Shown here: positions 38,485-46,199 of the stretch, piece by piece
Layout of the letters: each line of letters begins with the position of its first letter
Position numbering within the stretch: position 1 is the stretch's first letter
Source: Saprospiraceae bacterium
GTDB taxonomy: Bacteria; Bacteroidota; Bacteroidia; Chitinophagales; Saprospiraceae
NCBI GenBank assembly: GCA_020627785.1
Contig: JAHDGF010000001.1
Span: forward strand, 199,056 to 263,055
Length of the DNA stretch: 64,000 nucleotides
Direction of reading: 5' to 3'
Made by a program: the position numbers and the translations under genes
Notes under the pieces: generated by a model
What the model was told of the DNA's origin: nothing
Seen by the model: only the letters and a program-made list of their open reading frames with translations
Database searches by the model: none

Positions 38485-40653
38485 ATGAGAGTTAGCATTT
38501 GCATCCTTACCTATATATTTATTCAAACATCTATATCTGCTCAAATTAATCATTTTGAAACCATTGTTTATGGAGATGATGAATGGTCCTATCTAGTCTC
38601 AGATGCAGACCCAGTTTCTAATTGGCGTGATTTAGGTTTCGATGATTCATCTTGGTCCAAAGGTAATGGGAGTATCGGTTATGGCGATGGTGATGACCTC
38701 ACAGAATTGGAACCCTGCCAATCAGTATTCATGCGTCGCGAATTTGAAATAATTGACAAGGATGATATTTCCCATTTGATTTTTCATGCAGATTATGATG
38801 ATGGCTTTGTGGCTTATCTAAACGGTCAAGAAATTGTGCGATCCAATATGGTTGGACAATTTCCAAATTTTAATCAAGATGCAACTGACTTACGTGAAGC
38901 CGAAATGTATCAAGGAGGTATACCCATTGAATATAACATCGATGAGGCAATACTTAATAATTATTTGACAGATGGTGTAAATATTCTGGCCATTCAAACG
39001 CATAATTTCAATGGCACAAACAGTTCAGATATGACCTCGCTTTATTGGCTTTCTGCAGGTCTAAAATCTGAGGATATATCCTATGGGGAAGTGCCAGATT
39101 GGTTTTCTAGCAATAACTTTTTCCAATCAACTTTACCAATCGTGCGGATAAATACCTTAGGTCAACAAATTCCAGATGAACCGTCCATCAATGCCCTTAT
39201 GGAGATTGTATACAATGGTCCAAATGCTTTGAATGATTCACAAGAACCAGCCAATGAATTTTCTGGAAATATTTCGATCGAACTACGTGGTAACTCCTCC
39301 CAATTTCTTTTTCCTAAAAATAATTTTGGAATAGAAACTAAAGATGCTGATTGGATTGAAGATATAGATACTTCCTTTTTAAATTTTCCTACAGAAGAGG
39401 ACTGGGTATTTCATGGTCCTTATTCCGATAAAACTCTGATGCGAAATGTTTTGGTAATGCAGATTGCACAAGACATGGGGAACTACGCTAGTCGAACACA
39501 ATTCGTAGAGTTATTTATTAATGGTTCATATTGGGGAATTTATGTAATCATGGAAAGAATTAAAAGAGACAAGAATAGAGTAGATATAGCAAAATTAAAT
39601 CCAGAAGAAAACGAAGGGGATGATCTAACGGGTGGTTATATTTTAAGGATTGATTGGGGAGAGCCTAATTGGATTTCTCAATACAACTTTGCCAATAATC
39701 CATCTGAAGCTCCAGGTTTTCAGATTGTGTATCCTCGCAATGACGATTTATCTTTTGTCCAAGAACAGTACATTCAATCTTACGTTGATAGTTTCGAAAA
39801 TGCTATGGCATCTCCTGATCATTTTTTTGCTGGCAAGCATTACAGTGAATATATAGATGTGAACTCATTTATTGATCGTCTGGTTTTGAATGAGATTTCT
39901 AAAAATGTAGATGGTTACAGGCTTAGTGAATATTTCCACAAGGATAAAGATTCAAATGGTGGTAAACTAAAGGCTGGTCCTATTTGGGATTTTAACTTGG
40001 CGTTTGGGAATGCTGATTATTGTAATGACGTCTGGGAAGACTATGGTTGGATTTATCAAGATTTCTGTATAAATAACACACCCTTTTGGTGGCGTGAATT
40101 TTTTACGGATCAAGATTTTGTCAATCAACTAAATTGTCGTTGGCAAGAACTAAGAGCAGAAGTTTTAAGCTTTGATTACTTAGACTCATTTATTGATGAA
40201 AAAGTCGAAGAAATAAATCCTGCTTTGCAACGAAACTTTTCTCGTTGGCCAGTCCTTGATCAGTTCGTTTGGCCAAACCCTGAGGTAACAGGATCTTATG
40301 AATCTGAGGTTGAAAACCTAAAAGATTTTCTTTCAGCAAGACTTTCATGGATGGACATAAATATGCCAGGATCCTGCGTTACCTCCATAGATGAACATCT
40401 ACATCAAACTAAATTTGGCCTATTCCCAAATCCTAATAATGGGATGCTTAATATTGATAGTAAAGGATTTAATTATGGCTTGGCTTCTTTAAAGCTCTTT
40501 GGTCCACTTGGTAATTTACTAGATTTTCGAAAAGTGGAATTATCTGGAATTCTTAGCCTTAATTATAGCACTATTATGGAAGAAGCTGGAAGCTATGTTT
40601 TAGAAATACAATCGGATGAACTCTCAGAAATCTTTCGAATTATTAAGATGTAG
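38485..40653 (+). CDS. Secreted CotH kinase-family protein with T9SS sorting domain
   Basis: A 722-aa secreted protein. After a signal peptide (MRVSICILTYIFIQTSISAQ) comes a galactose-binding-like beta domain (DDSSWSKGNGSIGYGDGDD, VFMRREFEI). The CotH domain follows: SIELRGNSSQFLFPKNNFGI, then YWGIYVIMERIKRDKNRVDI, and GPIWDFNLAFGNADYCND. CotH proteins are atypical secreted kinases; here the substrate is unknown. The C-terminus is a sorting domain (LFPNPNNGMLNIDSKG). A bidirectional hairpin closes the transcript. Confidence 0.9.
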   Translation: MRVSICILTYIFIQTSISAQINHFETIVYGDDEWSYLVSDADPVSNWRDLGFDDSSWSKGNGSIGYGDGDDLTELEPCQSVFMRREFEIIDKDDISHLIFHADYDDGFVAYLNGQEIVRSNMVGQFPNFNQDATDLREAEMYQGGIPIEYNIDEAILNNYLTDGVNILAIQTHNFNGTNSSDMTSLYWLSAGLKSEDISYGEVPDWFSSNNFFQSTLPIVRINTLGQQIPDEPSINALMEIVYNGPNALNDSQEPANEFSGNISIELRGNSSQFLFPKNNFGIETKDADWIEDIDTSFLNFPTEEDWVFHGPYSDKTLMRNVLVMQIAQDMGNYASRTQFVELFINGSYWGIYVIMERIKRDKNRVDIAKLNPEENEGDDLTGGYILRIDWGEPNWISQYNFANNPSEAPGFQIVYPRNDDLSFVQEQYIQSYVDSFENAMASPDHFFAGKHYSEYIDVNSFIDRLVLNEISKNVDGYRLSEYFHKDKDSNGGKLKAGPIWDFNLAFGNADYCNDVWEDYGWIYQDFCINNTPFWWREFFTDQDFVNQLNCRWQELRAEVLSFDYLDSFIDEKVEEINPALQRNFSRWPVLDQFVWPNPEVTGSYESEVENLKDFLSARLSWMDINMPGSCVTSIDEHLHQTKFGLFPNPNNGMLNIDSKGFNYGLASLKLFGPLGNLLDFRKVELSGILSLNYSTIMEEAGSYVLEIQSDELSEIFRIIKM

Positions 40654-40665
40654 TTTGCTCTAAAT

Positions 40666-40697
40666 AAAAAAGCCAAGCCTCTCGGCTTGACTTTATC
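40666..40697. terminator. Bidirectional terminator between CotH and barrel genes
   Basis: An 8-bp stem with one wobble, GCCAAGCC (40672-40679) and GGCTTGAC (40684-40691), loop TCTC. It is flanked by an A run on the left and a T-rich stretch on the right, so it can serve both converging genes. Confidence 0.8.
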
Positions 40698-40717: not shown

Positions 40718-41563
40718 CTATCTTGGTAGTAAGTTAATTCCAAAATTTATTGGTGTTAACTCTGGTCCTTTTTCTGCTTGGAATAAATTATCTAAACCGT
40801 ATTGAAAGTAGAAGTTGACTGGCCCATATCCGGCTCTCACTTCTAGCATTCCTATGTTTTTATTTAGATTATAATCGTCTTTAATTTTCAATTTTGTATC
40901 CGATTCAGCTTTCGATCTGTGATTGCTTCCAAGTAATAAATTATAAACATATCCTACCGCTAGATTAAAAGACTTTGAAGACTTAGATGGATTAGTATTT
41001 AATTCAAGCATAACTGGAAGAGCGAGGTAACTTGCGTATAGTCTGTGATTTTTCATTTCCTCAACATCTCTATTGATTGCACTGAAAAAGTCTACTTGAT
41101 CCCTGTCCAATATGAAGTTTTCTTCAAAGCTATAGTGTACCATATTAAATCTAACGCCAGTTGATATTCCGACTACTTGAGGATTATTTTTTCCCGCCAA
41201 ACCAAACTTTAAATTTATCGCTTGTATCCCAACGTTGATTGATTTAGCCAATCTTTGATCCATGTATGAATATTCATCAGGCATGTTTAAATCACCATCG
41301 GCTAAATAACTACTGATTCCAAGATCAAGCATTCCAAATCTAATTTTACTTCTTTTGACCTTTTTGTCTCCATCATCATAGTGATCGTGATCGTGATCGT
41401 GATCGTGATCATGGTCGTGGTCGTGGTCATGGTCATCTATATCTCCCTCGTTTATTTCAATTTTAAAGTTTGTTCCCTTCTTTTTATTATCATTTTCTTC
41501 TTGAGCAGAAAGTTGAAGACTAAAGAAAAATAAAAGGGGTAGTAGTAATTTTAATGATTTCAT
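40718..41563 (-). CDS. Exported barrel-like protein with an (Asp-His)n segment
   Basis: A 281-aa exported protein with signal peptide MKSLKLLLPLLFFFSLQLSA. Right after a short charged spacer is an uninterrupted Asp-His alternation with nine His (residues about 44-61), encoded at 41378-41437. The rest, starting IRFGMLDLGISSYLADGDLN, has the strand pattern of an outer-membrane beta-barrel (VGIQAINLKFGLA, FNLAVGYVYNLLLGSN, LEVRAGYGPVNFYFQYG) and ends in NLLPR. The His-rich tract is like metal-buffering segments in zinc, nickel or copper proteins. It is the last gene of a run with an anti-sigma-like protein five bases upstream. Confidence 0.78.
   Translation of the reverse strand: MKSLKLLLPLLFFFSLQLSAQEENDNKKKGTNFKIEINEGDIDDHDHDHDHDHDHDHDHDHYDDGDKKVKRSKIRFGMLDLGISSYLADGDLNMPDEYSYMDQRLAKSINVGIQAINLKFGLAGKNNPQVVGISTGVRFNMVHYSFEENFILDRDQVDFFSAINRDVEEMKNHRLYASYLALPVMLELNTNPSKSSKSFNLAVGYVYNLLLGSNHRSKAESDTKLKIKDDYNLNKNIGMLEVRAGYGPVNFYFQYGLDNLFQAEKGPELTPINFGINLLPR
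41378..41437. repeat. 6-bp GATCGT-like repeat coding the Asp-His run
   Basis: About nine GATCGT/GGTCGT units in a row encode alternating Asp and His on the minus strand. Two codon styles (GAT-CAC and GAC-CAC/CAT) form two blocks, so the tract grew by slippage and was kept in frame. Confidence 0.85.
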
Positions 41564-41568
41564 AGTGT

Positions 41569-42462
41569 TTATTTTTTAGTGAATGTTTCAGGTATAAATG
41601 ATTGCAATAATTTTCTTTCTTTCATAAAATCGTTGACAGATTCGGAGCTTAGAGATTCTCGTAAGTCAACATCTTTATATGCATTGGTAGCAAAAACTTT
41701 TTTTAGATCTTTCCAGTTACCATCTCTTTTTTCTATAATTTTTTTATTGGAAAAATTCATGTTTAAACCTTTAGTTTCTGTTTTAATGTCTAGGTCAGAT
41801 CTTTCTGTTTGTAGTGATGCGATTCCAGTTATGACTTCTCTGTTTGCAACAGGTTCTGCGTCTGCTTCTTTATCAATTACTTCTATATCAATTTTTGCAA
41901 CTTCGGTTTCAGCTTTTATTATTTCCGTTTTCACAAATCTTGGTTCTGCTTTTTTGACCATAGCTTTTTTGACAATTGGAGTAGTTTTGCTTGCAATAAC
42001 TTTAGTTGTACTAGCTATTGGCATCTGTTCTTCAATTTCAGTAACCACTTCTTTAGTTTCTAATTCTAAATTATCACTCAAATTAATTTTGGCCTCTTCT
42101 TTGATTTCTTTAATTGGCTCTACTTGCGCAAGAGGCATTGTTTTATTTATTTCTTCAGCTGGCACCTTATTTACTTGTTCTTTAGTGCCAAAGAACAATA
42201 AACAAAAAACAACAAGGAGCACTGGAATTAATAACCAAGCATACTTGAATTTCGATTGATCAACCAATAGTAATTCTTTGTTTTCAAAAATGATGCTTTC
42301 ATCTTCTTTGAGAATTGGAGCTGAAATAAATTCCTTGATTTCATCATAGATTTCAGGGTGATCTACTATAAAGAAGTCAAAAGCTTCCTTCTGCTCTCCC
42401 GAAAGATTTCCTTCGATGTAATCGATCACAAAATTTTCGTAGTTAAGCTTATTGATTTTCAT
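41569..42462 (-). CDS. Anti-sigma-factor-like membrane protein
   Basis: A 297-aa inner-membrane protein with one transmembrane helix (YAWLLIPVLLVVFCLLFFG, about 74-92). The cytoplasmic N-terminus (NYENFVIDYIEGNLSGEQ, then EAFDFFIVDHPEIYDEIKEF) resembles the zinc-less anti-sigma heads found beside Bacteroidota ECF sigma factors. The external part is a long low-complexity Lys/Glu/Ile/Val-rich tail, then a short folded end. Its start overlaps the sigma factor stop by four bases, so the two are translationally coupled. This is the classic regulator pair; the signal is unknown. Confidence 0.8.
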   Translation of the reverse strand: MKINKLNYENFVIDYIEGNLSGEQKEAFDFFIVDHPEIYDEIKEFISAPILKEDESIIFENKELLLVDQSKFKYAWLLIPVLLVVFCLLFFGTKEQVNKVPAEEINKTMPLAQVEPIKEIKEEAKINLSDNLELETKEVVTEIEEQMPIASTTKVIASKTTPIVKKAMVKKAEPRFVKTEIIKAETEVAKIDIEVIDKEADAEPVANREVITGIASLQTERSDLDIKTETKGLNMNFSNKKIIEKRDGNWKDLKKVFATNAYKDVDLRESLSSESVNDFMKERKLLQSFIPETFTKK

Positions 42463-42986
42463 CTCTGGTTTCTGTTGTAGCTTGAGTCAATTTTTGTTAC
42501 AATACTTTTCATCTGCTTTCTTGCTCTAAATAAATTGACTTTTACCTGACTTAAATTAATATCTAGAATTTCTGCAATTTCCTCATAGCTAAACCCACTC
42601 CAATCTCTCAGCAGAATTATTCGCTTCTTTTTTTCATCCAATTGTTGGAAAGCTTGTTCTATTATTTCTTTTTCCTCATTATATAATTTACCTCCGTCCT
42701 GCTTTTCAGGTAGGATATCCATGGTCTGAATCCTTTTCATTTTACGTTTGTCATCAACCATTTTATTGAATAGAACTCTGTAAAGAAACGGTCTTGCATA
42801 TGATACCTCTACCTTATCTCTATTAGCCCAAAGCTTAAGAAAACTCTCCTGTACCAAATCTTTTGCGGAAGCAACATTATTAGTCAACTTAAGAGCATAT
42901 CTGTACAATGGATCAGATACAGTTCCCACGATCTCGTTATATTCTGAGCTTTTCAATGTTTTTTCGTTCGTTTCTACTACTATCAC
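42459..42986 (-). CDS. ECF-type RNA polymerase sigma factor
   Basis: A 175-aa sigma-70 family group IV factor. Region 2 is visible as YNEIVGTVSDPLYRYALKLT, ASAKDLVQESFLKLWAN and RPFLYRVLFNKMVDDKR; region 4 is QLDEKKKRIILLRDWSGFSY with EEIAEILDINLSQVKVNLFR, the helix-turn-helix that reads the -35 element. The gene overlaps the anti-sigma-like gene by four bases and is preceded by cutC with a 43-base gap. It probably controls its own operon, including the Asp-His barrel. Confidence 0.93.
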   Translation of the reverse strand: MIVVETNEKTLKSSEYNEIVGTVSDPLYRYALKLTNNVASAKDLVQESFLKLWANRDKVEVSYARPFLYRVLFNKMVDDKRKMKRIQTMDILPEKQDGGKLYNEEKEIIEQAFQQLDEKKKRIILLRDWSGFSYEEIAEILDINLSQVKVNLFRARKQMKSIVTKIDSSYNRNQR

Positions 42987-43029
42987 GTATAGCAGTCCAA
43001 TAAGTTACAACAAGATGAAAATTATTTTT

Positions 43030-43674
43030 TTAAACGATTCTTCTACCGTGGTAATGTGTGGCTTGAAGCTGGTTGTGTAAGCTTATAACATTTTCAGCTG
43101 TCACCTTTCCTGCTGGGATCACAGTTAATTGATTGTTAGACTGCCGAATGAAATTTTTAAGGTTGTTTACTCCTGCTAATGCTGTTGATTCTCCTCCTGA
43201 AGTAAGTAGGTGTGTAAAGTTTTTTAAATCCTTTAAGACCTCAATGGCTATTGTAAAATCCGCAATTTCATCAAATGCCTTATGGAAGGTAATGGTAGAA
43301 TCTTGAACAGATTCCGAAATGCGTTCAAGAGCTTCGATATCAATTGTATTTTCAGAGCTTAAGGCACCGAAAACAAACTGATTTATCCCGATGTTTTTAA
43401 ATTCTAAAATTTGTTCTTGCATGATCGCAAGATCTTCAGAACTGTATACAAAGTTACCTCCCCTAGACCGGATCATTACTTTTATAGGAATATCTAATTC
43501 CGATAAACATTTTTGGGTAAGTTCTAAACTAGGAGTTAAACCATCTAGATGTAGATTAGAACATAATTCGATTACATCAGCTCCATTGTTTTGTGCAGAT
43601 TTCGCTTCCGCAAATGTTTCGACACAGGCTTCTTTTAGAAATGAAGCCTTCCCATCATTCAAAACCATTGACAA
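43030..43674 (-). CDS. cutC: CutC-family copper homeostasis protein
   Basis: A 214-aa cytoplasmic TIM-barrel protein. Family motifs are ACVETFAEAKSAQNNGADVI followed by ELCSNLHLDGLTPSLEL, IKVMIRSRGGNFVYS, FVFGALSSENTIDIEALERI, TFHKAFDEI and LLTSGGESTALAG. It is a little short at the C-terminus (YHGRRIV). CutC was linked to copper tolerance, though the biochemical activity is debated. Its start overlaps the end of the upstream lipoprotein gene by 20 bases, and the sigma factor follows after 43 bases, so it sits inside a possible metal-related operon. Confidence 0.9.
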   Translation of the reverse strand: MSMVLNDGKASFLKEACVETFAEAKSAQNNGADVIELCSNLHLDGLTPSLELTQKCLSELDIPIKVMIRSRGGNFVYSSEDLAIMQEQILEFKNIGINQFVFGALSSENTIDIEALERISESVQDSTITFHKAFDEIADFTIAIEVLKDLKNFTHLLTSGGESTALAGVNNLKNFIRQSNNQLTVIPAGKVTAENVISLHNQLQATHYHGRRIV

Positions 43675-44188
43675 TCAACTTAAACCGAAGTGTTCCATCG
43701 ATTTGCTCTGTATTAAAACCTCTGAAATTTATTCTAAATTCTAAGTCCACAGTTTCATCTGTGAAAAAGTCCTTTACATTTACAATCGACCCAATCATTG
43801 GGATTTCAGTCTTGGTGCCAAATGGAATCTGATCATTAAAAACATATAAAACTTCTTTCCGGAGGCTATGGTCTTGCTTATCTAATACATGGAGGCCAAT
43901 ATCAGAAATCACATCTAAGTTCAGGCCGGTCACTCTAGTGGTAAATTCTCCGGTTGCTCCCAAAATCTGATCAACCTCATCTATTGTGAAACCATTAGCA
44001 GTTAATTGTTGCTCAAAAAAAGTTGGAACATCTTCAATGATAAAAAAGTGATCCTCGATTGTATTCAGTCCTACCGGTATGTTTATATCGAAAAACATAT
44101 CCATTTCGAAAAGCACGGGTTGTTGCTTCCTGCAGGAAAAGCTACTAAGGCAGATGATCAAGCCTAGAATGTAATGTCGATAATTCAT
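43655..44188 (-). CDS. Lipoprotein of unknown function
   Basis: A 177-aa lipoprotein: leader MNYRHYILGLIICLSSFSC has a lipobox (SSFSC) with the acylated Cys at residue 19. The mature part begins RKQQPVLFEMDMFFDINIPV and is rich in beta strands, as in small Bacteroidota surface lipoproteins; the end is LEFRINFRGFNTEQIDG, then TLRFKLIVNGFE. I cannot name a family. The next gene, cutC, starts 20 bases before its stop, so both are on one transcript. Confidence 0.75.
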   Translation of the reverse strand: MNYRHYILGLIICLSSFSCRKQQPVLFEMDMFFDINIPVGLNTIEDHFFIIEDVPTFFEQQLTANGFTIDEVDQILGATGEFTTRVTGLNLDVISDIGLHVLDKQDHSLRKEVLYVFNDQIPFGTKTEIPMIGSIVNVKDFFTDETVDLEFRINFRGFNTEQIDGTLRFKLIVNGFE

Positions 44189-44217: not shown

Positions 44218-44279
44218 GTTATGTCAATATGTTAATTATTACCTGCAATTTGATGTATATTTATTTCAAAACAAAGCAG

Positions 44280-46199
44280 ATGGGCGAACAGAAAGTATCT
44301 CTTGTAGAAGATAGTCAGCAAATGAACCGATTTATTCGCGCTTTACTAAATGATGTGAAGGCATTGGAATATATGTTGGAGAATGATTGGTTCAATAAGG
44401 ATGTGATGCACATTGGTGCCGAACAAGAGATGGCCCTCGTGGATTTGAAAAATTATAAGCCTGCATGCATAGCCGTAGAGGCCATGGAAAAAATGTCAGA
44501 ATATGATTGGCTTGAAACAGAGTTGGCAAAATTCAATTTGGAAATTTGTCTTACTCCTCAGCGATTTGCCGAAGATTGTTTTACTAAGCTACATTCCGAA
44601 ATTAGTTCAAGACTAGACATCATATCCGCCAATCTAAATGAATTAGGAGCAGATTTAGTACTTACTGGTATTCTACCCACTTTAAGAAAAAAGAACCTTG
44701 AGCTAGATAATCTTACGCCAAAGAAAAGATACTACGCATTGATGGAAGGCATGAGGCGACAGTTGATCGGAAGTAATTTTGAATTAAGGCTTGATGGAAT
44801 TGATGAGATGATGCTTAAGCATGAAAGCCCTTTACTAGAAGCGGTGAATACTAGTTTCCAGGTTCATCTTCAAGTTACGCCCAATGAGTTTGTAAAAATG
44901 TACAACATTTCACAAGCTTTGACAGCACCCATAATGGCCATTGCGGCTAATTCACCTCTTGTTTTTGGAAAACGTTTATGGCATGAATCTAGAATTGCTA
45001 TGTTCCAGCAAGCGATTGATACTAGAACAACACACAATCACATGAGAGAACGTTCACCTCGAGTGAATTTTGGGAACAGGTGGTTGGATAAATCGATTTT
45101 AGAAATATACCAAGAAGATATATCAAGGTTTAGGGTTTTGATAAGCTCTGATGTGGAAGAAGACTCATTAGAATCAATTGAAGCAGGTAAAACACCCCAT
45201 TTGAGAGCTTTGCAGGTTCATAATTCAACCGTGTACCGATGGAATCGACCCTGCTATGGAATCAGCCCTAATGGCAAGCCGCATTTGCGAATTGAAAATC
45301 GAGTGATTCCTTCTGGGCCTACCGTATTAGATGAAGTAGCAAACTCCGCACTTTGGCTTGGAGCAATGAAAGGAATGGATGCAGAAATTGAAGACATCCG
45401 TACCCGGATGAGTTTTGCAGATGCTAGAGACAATTTTGTCAAAGCGGCCAAGTATGGGATCGATTCAAAATTCACTTGGTTTGATGATGAGAAAATTACG
45501 GCCTGCGATTTAGTGAAGAACAAGCTTGTCCCAATGGCTCGGAAAGGATTACTGAAAATGGGAGTTATTCAATCCGACATTGATAAATACATGCAGGTCA
45601 TAGAAGAACGCGCGGATGCACATATGAATGGTGCAAGATGGATGCTCAGATCTTACACTCATTTAAAAGATCAGTTTCCTCAAGCCGAATCATTGACTGT
45701 ATTAACGCACGCCATTCACGAAAATCAAAAGTCTAATACTCCGGGCCATAAGTGGCCAATGCCGGAGGTGAAAAGTACCCAACATTTCCACCCTTCTGAA
45801 TTGAAAGTTTCTGAGTTTATGCAGACAGATTTTCAAACAGTCCAGAAAGGGGATATTCTTGATTTTGTAGCAGAACTCATGGCTTGGGGTAAAGTTAAAT
45901 TTACACCCGTCGAAAATTCCAAAGCTCATTTAGTAGGCTTAGTATCGAGCGATCAGATTCTCCAATCTTTGACCAATGCTAAAAGAAGCAAACAAGAATT
46001 TGTTACCGTTGATCAAATCATGCATCGTGATCCAATAACCATTGATCCAGAATCATCCATTCAGGATGCAATGAAAATAATGAAGGAAAATAAAATTGGC
46101 TGTCTTCCGGTTGTGCAGAACGATGAACTAATAGGATTAATTACCGAAAGTGATTTTATAGGCGTATCAAGAAGATTATTTGATCGAGCTGGCGATTAA
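44280..46199 (+). CDS. Glutamate-cysteine ligase (GCS2)-like protein fused to CBS domains
   Basis: A 639-aa cytoplasmic protein. I placed the start at 44280 (MGEQKVSLVEDSQQMNRF); the frame is open to 44229, but those 17 residues look non-coding. Residues about 30-480 resemble the GCS2/carboxylate-amine ligase fold: HIGAEQEMALVD, TELAKFNLEICLTPQ, EGMRRQLIGSNFELRLDG, NTSFQVHLQVTP and PIMAIAANSPLVFGKRLWHE. The C-terminal 135 residues are a tandem CBS pair (VSEFMQTDFQTVQKGDILDF, DQIMHRDPITIDPESSIQDA, then NKIGCLPVVQNDELIGLITE). CBS pairs usually sense adenosine nucleotides, so ligase activity may be allosterically controlled. The true substrate (glutamate plus an amine) is unknown. Confidence 0.85.
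   Translation: MGEQKVSLVEDSQQMNRFIRALLNDVKALEYMLENDWFNKDVMHIGAEQEMALVDLKNYKPACIAVEAMEKMSEYDWLETELAKFNLEICLTPQRFAEDCFTKLHSEISSRLDIISANLNELGADLVLTGILPTLRKKNLELDNLTPKKRYYALMEGMRRQLIGSNFELRLDGIDEMMLKHESPLLEAVNTSFQVHLQVTPNEFVKMYNISQALTAPIMAIAANSPLVFGKRLWHESRIAMFQQAIDTRTTHNHMRERSPRVNFGNRWLDKSILEIYQEDISRFRVLISSDVEEDSLESIEAGKTPHLRALQVHNSTVYRWNRPCYGISPNGKPHLRIENRVIPSGPTVLDEVANSALWLGAMKGMDAEIEDIRTRMSFADARDNFVKAAKYGIDSKFTWFDDEKITACDLVKNKLVPMARKGLLKMGVIQSDIDKYMQVIEERADAHMNGARWMLRSYTHLKDQFPQAESLTVLTHAIHENQKSNTPGHKWPMPEVKSTQHFHPSELKVSEFMQTDFQTVQKGDILDFVAELMAWGKVKFTPVENSKAHLVGLVSSDQILQSLTNAKRSKQEFVTVDQIMHRDPITIDPESSIQDAMKIMKENKIGCLPVVQNDELIGLITESDFIGVSRRLFDRAGD

Follow-up and report, generated by a model that had tools for sequence, protein, structure and literature searches.

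The closest described systems to the locus reported here are the dual membrane-spanning anti-sigma (Dma/Das) systems of Bacteroides thetaiotaomicron. According to PMC13088901, a Dma anti-sigma factor unites a sigma-binding domain, a transmembrane (TM) helix, a disordered tether and a C-terminal beta-barrel in one chain, and its gene lies beside that of an extracytoplasmic function (ECF) sigma factor of group ECF21. Here we analysed a stretch of 64,000 nucleotides from a Saprospiraceae bacterium (GenBank assembly GCA_020627785.1), hereafter called the window, which is located on contig C53 of a 4.69-Mb, 90.64%-complete assembly. Five minus-strand open reading frames (ORFs) at positions 40718-44188 encode, in the direction of transcription, a putative lipoprotein, a CutC-family protein, an ECF sigma factor, an anti-sigma factor and an eight-stranded outer-membrane beta-barrel protein, the last of which carries a run of alternating Asp and His residues. 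Judged from gene order in relatives, these ORFs are two neighbouring units, a lipoprotein-cutC pair and a sigma/anti-sigma/barrel trio, and a single operon is not supported.

The trio shares several features with the Dma/Das systems (PMC13088901): it belongs to Bacteroidota, the ECF sigma gene stands beside that of the anti-sigma factor, and a beta-barrel is part of the system. The model of the window anti-sigma factor shows an N-terminal domain that may bind sigma, one TM helix and a long disordered tether; its matches to the anti-sigma factor RslA are weak. It differs in that the barrel is encoded by a separate, following gene, and the anti-sigma model ends in a helix and has no strands. Because the one-chain feature fails, we do not file the trio as Dma. 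A second point of comparison is NF058625 (GFO_1088/PG0214 sigma), the best-scoring NCBIfam model for the window sigma factor. The score of 118.3 bits remains below the cut-off of 130, and all 18 sigma factors of our alignment A3 matched the model at E 1e-10 or better. The corresponding P. gingivalis locus, PG_0214-PG_0218, is annotated as a DUF4252 protein and hypothetical proteins, and differs from the trio in that no named barrel is annotated there (PMC10101095). A limited literature search found no published description of a separate sigma/anti-sigma/barrel trio or of such a His tail.

The trio stays together in relatives

The initial annotation of this DNA had described five consecutive genes with overlaps or gaps of 20 (overlap), 43, 4 (overlap) and 5 bases, and this layout is indeed present when its start codons are used. 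It had further proposed that the five genes may form one metal-response operon: the sigma factor would detect metal stress and regulate an outer-membrane barrel that binds metal. On this reading, CutC and the lipoprotein would help to handle copper. The shared direction and short gaps of the genes and the nine-His run in the window agree with such an operon; the gene order in related genomes, in which ORFs were read in 20 stretches, does not. In G002 and G005, cutC is split from the sigma gene by two opposite-strand genes, encoding an FGGY sugar kinase and a GFO/IDH/MocA oxidoreductase. The lipoprotein-cutC pair of G003 is found downstream of the barrel gene, beyond a dsbA-like gene, and in G004 neither gene is in the stretch read, the CutC of this genome sitting on another contig. 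CutC and the lipoprotein were separated from the trio in all four further genomes of the genus for which a trio was read; for the fifth, G001 (a 67%-complete assembly), the best sigma match was only 28% identical. The linkage of all five genes is thus largely lost in relatives, and the trio stays together.

The full trio was labelled in 14 of 17 sigma loci, one of which (L071) has a small ORF ahead of the barrel gene. In the remaining three, the middle gene is unlabelled (L073), the anti-sigma factor is fused (L070) or there is no barrel (L078). A scan of named genomes with the barrel alignment yielded 74 loci, all fetched by one peptide pattern of the barrel. Sigma, anti-sigma and barrel stood in line at 45 of these 74 related Bacteroidota loci; a further 11 had sigma and barrel but no middle gene that could be recognised, two were divergent and at 16 no sigma was seen, with less than 700 bases available upstream of the barrel in five of the 16. 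A recount of these classes gave identical figures. CutC was nearby in only two of the 74 loci, both from the same genus (L130 and L131). Trio-type loci occurred in records titled Saprospiraceae, Chitinophagales, Bacteroidales, Flavobacteriales and Sphingobacteriales; cultured organisms with all three genes include Acidiluteibacter ferrifornacis S-15 (L164) and Labilibaculum sp. K2S (L154), as their records are titled. When the anti-sigma domain was used as the query, it was detected in 169 of 345 genomes of the class, and a sigma gene adjoined it in all 20 of the best-scoring loci, one of which is that of the window. On this linkage, the sigma/anti-sigma/barrel trio is a conserved module that is common across Bacteroidota.

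The lipoprotein and cutC genes were kept adjacent within the genus (G001, G002, G003, G005 and the window), and by the same comparison they belong together at the level of the genus, whereas no link of theirs to the trio is conserved. No Pfam match was found for the lipoprotein at E up to 1; counting the genome of the window, 26 of 60 genomes had a relative. The CutC name was confirmed by PF03932 (E 2.2e-51; 174.6 bits against a cut-off of 23.3) and by matches to four CutC sequences of the PDB (best E 5.8e-36); the start at ATG 43668 is the more likely one. CutC had been taken as a pointer to copper. According to PMC6538781, the copper sensitivity of E. coli cutC mutants results wholly from loss of the small RNA MicL, and for this reason the name is weak evidence for copper. 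In the CutC neighbourhoods (55 chosen ORFs, either strand), glycosidase families 2 and 20, redoxins and Asparaginase_2 were the commonest among the 25 of 60 families listed, and the others may include a metal gene. This survey covered 23 of 29 loci, leaving out the same-genus loci L106, L109 and L114 as well as L107, L110 and L113 and keeping L101, which is from G004.

The sigma gene has its own promoter motif

The window sigma factor matched PF08281 (3.5e-17) and PF04542 (4.4e-11) and is a short protein of 165 residues with no further domains, which confirms it as an ECF sigma factor. It has 33 matches within its own assembly. The start codon chosen in the initial annotation, GTG 42986, lies within the -10 element of a promoter motif that is conserved, and TTG 42956 corresponds in position to the start of all four orthologues from the genus; for these reasons the gap between cutC and sigma is more likely 73 bases.

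The motif, TGTAAC-N16/17-CGT, was present near the sigma start in 53 of 68 loci, window included (N16 in 16 loci and N17 in 37), compared to 0.18% of mononucleotide shuffles of the same regions. For this count, L130, L131, L146, L147, L157 and L158, from genomes already sampled, and the divergent L165 and L166 were dropped. We take its layout to resemble that of ECF -35 and -10 elements. A stricter form of the pattern had one exact match in the whole assembly, which is the site ahead of the window sigma gene. Since this motif precedes sigma inside the gap after cutC, the transcription unit of the trio probably starts at sigma. The position of the motif suggests that the sigma factor would regulate its own gene together with those of the anti-sigma factor and the barrel, and that it likely drives barrel expression. 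The earlier idea that a sigma/anti-sigma pair regulates a neighbouring envelope gene is therefore retained as likely for the barrel, supported by the conserved trio and the motif, and is not supported for the five-gene operon. A wider regulon was also sought; the four sites with one mismatch were fewer than the 14 matches (6 and 8) of a reversed control pattern, and no further target could be named.

Predicted structures of the anti-sigma factor and the barrel

The anti-sigma factor had no Pfam match at E up to 1. Its AlphaFold model (mean predicted local distance difference test score, pLDDT, of 63.9; predicted template modelling score 0.29) shows a three-helix N-terminal domain with confident helices to residue 46 and one TM helix at about residues 69-96. 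These are followed by a long periplasmic stretch of low confidence, read as disordered, and a C-terminal helix at residues 276-287, without strands. The name that the protein had been given finds no family match behind it; it agrees with the helical domain and TM helix of the model, with weak matches to RslA and with the position beside the sigma gene. The C-terminal ends of these anti-sigma factors differ between groups.

Some further variation was observed among the anti-sigma-like proteins. The N-terminal domain is seemingly in tandem in many of them, with second copies recognised by eye in L164, L169, L171, L174, L181, L186, L189 and L202, and class-wide hits to the domain included two or three matches within one frame. 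The anti-sigma-like protein of L078 (4777-5742) has an apparent TonB C-terminal domain at its end and no related barrel after it; PF03544 was matched by one of 18 anti-sigma-like members (7.1e-15), which we assigned to L078 by eye.

The barrel assignment was upheld by PF13568 (OMP_b-brl_2; E 2.1e-07, 31.6 bits against a cut-off of 27) and by the AlphaFold model, which has a mean pLDDT of 84.3 and eight main strands between residues 78 and 278. In structural comparisons the model matched NspA (Z 13.2, root-mean-square deviation 3.0 over 149 residues) and OmpA (Z 13.1, 3.6 over 158 residues), at sequence identities of about 6-11% to the top OmpA and NspA entries. The protein is similar to these eight-stranded barrels in fold and differs from them in its added N-terminal acidic tail with the Asp-His run. 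The loop K-x-K-x-K-D-D-F-N-L is conserved, which is partly forced by the search pattern; several of its positions were nearly invariant also in 20 barrels that had not been picked by this pattern.

Two related barrels are found in tandem behind the anti-sigma gene at L067 (3360-5086) and L171 (5001-6850). Same-genus barrel paralogues are present at L079, L080 and L081. These lack the Asp-His run, and the DNA read around them shows neither a sigma nor an anti-sigma gene; a PhnA-domain gene adjoins the paralogue of L079.

The Asp-His run is limited to one genus

The nine His in strict alternation with Asp, as first described, are exactly present in the window barrel, and the DNA pattern coding for HDHDHDH was not found at a second place in the assembly. 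The run is located in the low-confidence tail of the model, where residues 27-48 have a pLDDT below 50 and the ten-residue blocks covering the run have means of 45 to 65. In known eight-stranded barrels both termini are on one side, the periplasm. Because eight strands put both ends on the periplasmic side, the tail should face the periplasm and not the cell surface.

The run was present in three of the 20 barrels read, all from one genus: that of the window, that of G005, with nine His and an Asn within the alternation, and that of G002, with six His and a Tyr. It was missing from two of the five same-genus orthologues (G003 and G004), whose tails of 51 and 47 residues contain much Asp, Glu, Ser and Thr and at most one His, and from the barrels read outside the genus. 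When the 74 barrel loci were tested for at least five alternating His and acidic residues, only the window and L130, which is the G002 locus, had such a stretch. The tract is thus not generally conserved among the orthologues. In a nine-taxon tree, the window, G005 and G002 were placed apart from G003 with a weak support of 61, and a single gain of the run is possible. From these tails we read the run as having arisen recently within an acidic, disordered tail that varies little in length (47-51 residues).

A rather different explanation is that the barrel is a target of the sigma factor and not a sensor, and that the run is a neutral expansion by slippage of a hexanucleotide repeat in a disordered acidic linker. 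We consider this a serious possibility, at somewhat less than even odds. It fits the six-base repeat with its varying His count (9, 9 and 6), the lack of the run in G003 and G004, whose tails are about as long, and the low model confidence of the region. However, the codons are mixed (CAT/CAC and GAT/GAC) in all three species, and as a result the run is not a pure DNA repeat; moreover, most of the alternation is retained at 58-60% overall protein identity.

As a matter of chemistry, it is plausible from its composition that the run has affinity for metals. ZrgA and other His-rich metal-uptake proteins resemble the window protein in having a His-Asp-rich stretch in an envelope protein, and differ in that the rest of the window protein is a barrel. 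The ZrgA match covered residues 37-63 only, that is the low-complexity run, and stayed below the cut-offs (PF10986, 16.3 of 27.4 bits; NF047873, 14.1 of 185). Kinship with the metal-transporter families ZrgA, DmeF, HypB, Zip and UreE was rejected, all matches being low-complexity ones below the cut-offs.

Features and neighbouring genes

The coordinates of the five ORFs and of the associated sites are listed in Table 1. Two genes flank them. Divergent from the lipoprotein gene, a glutamate-cysteine-ligase-2-like protein with C-terminal CBS domains (PF04107, PF00571) is encoded at 44229-46199; it is found at the same place in G002 and G005, with 80-85% identity over the part read. Convergent with the barrel gene, a CotH-kinase-domain protein is encoded at 38485-40653; its match to a type IX secretion sorting tail is weak (E 0.00092) and does not reach the cut-off.

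Table 1. Positions in the window of the lipoprotein-cutC pair, the trio and associated sites
Feature	Position	Strand	Basis and remarks
Putative lipoprotein, 177 aa	43655..44188	-	ORF; first gene of the lipoprotein-cutC pair; lipobox Cys by eye
CutC-family protein	43030..43668	-	PF03932; likely start ATG 43668, overlapping the lipoprotein gene; outside the sigma unit
ECF-type promoter motif TTGTAAC-N16-CGTGATA	42981..43010	-	Upstream of sigma, in the cutC-sigma gap
ECF sigma factor, 165 aa from TTG 42956	42459..42956	-	PF08281/PF04542; start shared with same-genus orthologues
Anti-sigma factor (predicted)	41569..42462	-	AlphaFold model; weak RslA matches; linkage to sigma
Eight-stranded outer-membrane beta-barrel protein, 281 aa	40718..41563	-	PF13568; AlphaFold model; NspA/OmpA structural matches
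Asp-His run, barrel residues 45-61, nine His	41381..41431	-	N-terminal tail of the barrel protein
Terminator-like hairpin and T run	40669..40694	-	3' of the barrel gene; 4 such sites in the stretch, 2.0 expected in shuffles

Discussion

We give a probability of roughly 0.7 to the reading that the locus consists of two units, of which the trio is an autoregulated Bacteroidota module with its own ECF-type promoter that serves envelope signalling through the anti-sigma factor and the barrel and does not require metals. The N-terminal helical domain of the anti-sigma factor would bind the sigma factor and tether it at the inner membrane, and the long disordered periplasmic tail would reach toward the outer membrane, the site of the eight-stranded barrel. 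An envelope signal would break this hold, after which the freed sigma factor would transcribe its own operon. Sigma, anti-sigma and barrel would then rise together, giving a positive feedback with a built-in shut-off. The barrel may be the output of the module or the outer-membrane arm of its sensor, as in a Dma anti-sigma factor from which the barrel part has been split off as a gene of its own. In the periplasm, divalent metals or protons could be bound by the Asp-His run; the module itself would need no metals.

Several observations weigh against this account. The contact between the anti-sigma factor and the barrel is hypothetical. In the Foldseek search of the PDB, seven of the nine matches to the anti-sigma model were chains of M. 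tuberculosis RslA, all weak (E 1.7 to 8.6). The direct structural comparison with RslA gave Z 5.2 (2.8 Å over 53 residues; the next match, a retron-complex chain, gave Z 4.0), and in helical folds such a low Z may mean only a common arrangement; the RslA matches agree with a modelled anti-sigma domain without proving one. TGTAAC-N16/17-CGT was not found in 15 of the 68 sigma upstream regions, and the sigma ORFs as called in L153 and L156 include it, as does that of the window with the start of the initial annotation. The terminator scan of the window found no terminator-like site between cutC and sigma, and hence transcription may run on from cutC into the sigma gene of this species. Barrels with the searched loop are over-represented in the 74 loci because a single pattern fetched them. 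The anti-sigma query was itself built mostly from these loci and gives a sample that is less biased and not independent. With this query, 18 of 19 non-window loci were extended, L242 being left out near a contig end. A related barrel was present downstream in nine of the 18, a count that includes L268, where it lies past an intervening gene, and L276, where the match is weak (E 4e-04), and in which L259 and L266, on contigs as long as those of L163 and L179, may repeat these loci, so that the sample is not independent in this respect either. The DNA obtained for the other nine loci contained no barrel recognised as related, and the barrel is therefore a frequent and not an obligate partner of the anti-sigma factor.

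A more specific proposal is that the trio is a split trans-envelope sensor of the Dma type, in which the tail of the anti-sigma factor would be docked to the barrel from the periplasmic side; undocking would free the sigma factor and alter outer-membrane or vesicle output. This we hold tentatively, the odds being against it. It is attractive because the Dma chain has matching parts beside an ECF21 sigma gene (PMC13088901), and the window, by its models, would carry the first three of these parts in one gene and the barrel in the next. Moreover, among the 248 genomes of the family that were searched, a fused anti-sigma factor of 505-516 residues with a C-terminus that is beta-rich by eye lies beside the sigma gene in L070 and L277 (G026 and G154, from one genus). 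On the other hand, no relation to the window barrel and no Pfam match was detected for the C-terminal part of the fused L070 protein, a result that also belongs with the points against the preferred account, and the variation of the anti-sigma C-terminal ends between groups also speaks against the proposal. A version of this sensor in which the genus-specific His-Asp segment lies on the periplasmic side of the contact, so that the sigma switch would answer periplasmic metal or pH, appears improbable to us.

The original five-gene metal-response operon is not supported and we regard it as very improbable, since the missing terminator-like site after cutC and the preservation of the run across three species, its His and Asp codons being mixed, are outweighed by the separation of cutC from sigma in relatives, the promoter motif of the sigma gene itself, the absence of the run from barrels read outside one genus, the matches to ZrgA, DmeF and Zip, which are weak, lie on or around the low-complexity run and stay far below the cut-offs, and the weakness of CutC as a sign of copper.

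We conclude that the window holds a common, conserved Bacteroidota signalling trio with an unusual tail that is limited to one genus. The best reading of the sequence is that the trio would act as an autoregulated envelope sensor resembling a Dma anti-sigma factor split over two genes, to which a genus-specific His-Asp tail has been added. Bacteroidota carry many ECF sigma factors for which the signal is not known, and the trio, with its own conserved promoter motif, offers cultured places to study how the state of the outer membrane reaches the cytoplasm. It also allows one to ask if the fused Dma proteins function in the way that these separate genes do. The Asp-His tail amounts to a natural experiment on a small scale, since three species of the genus have it and two do not.

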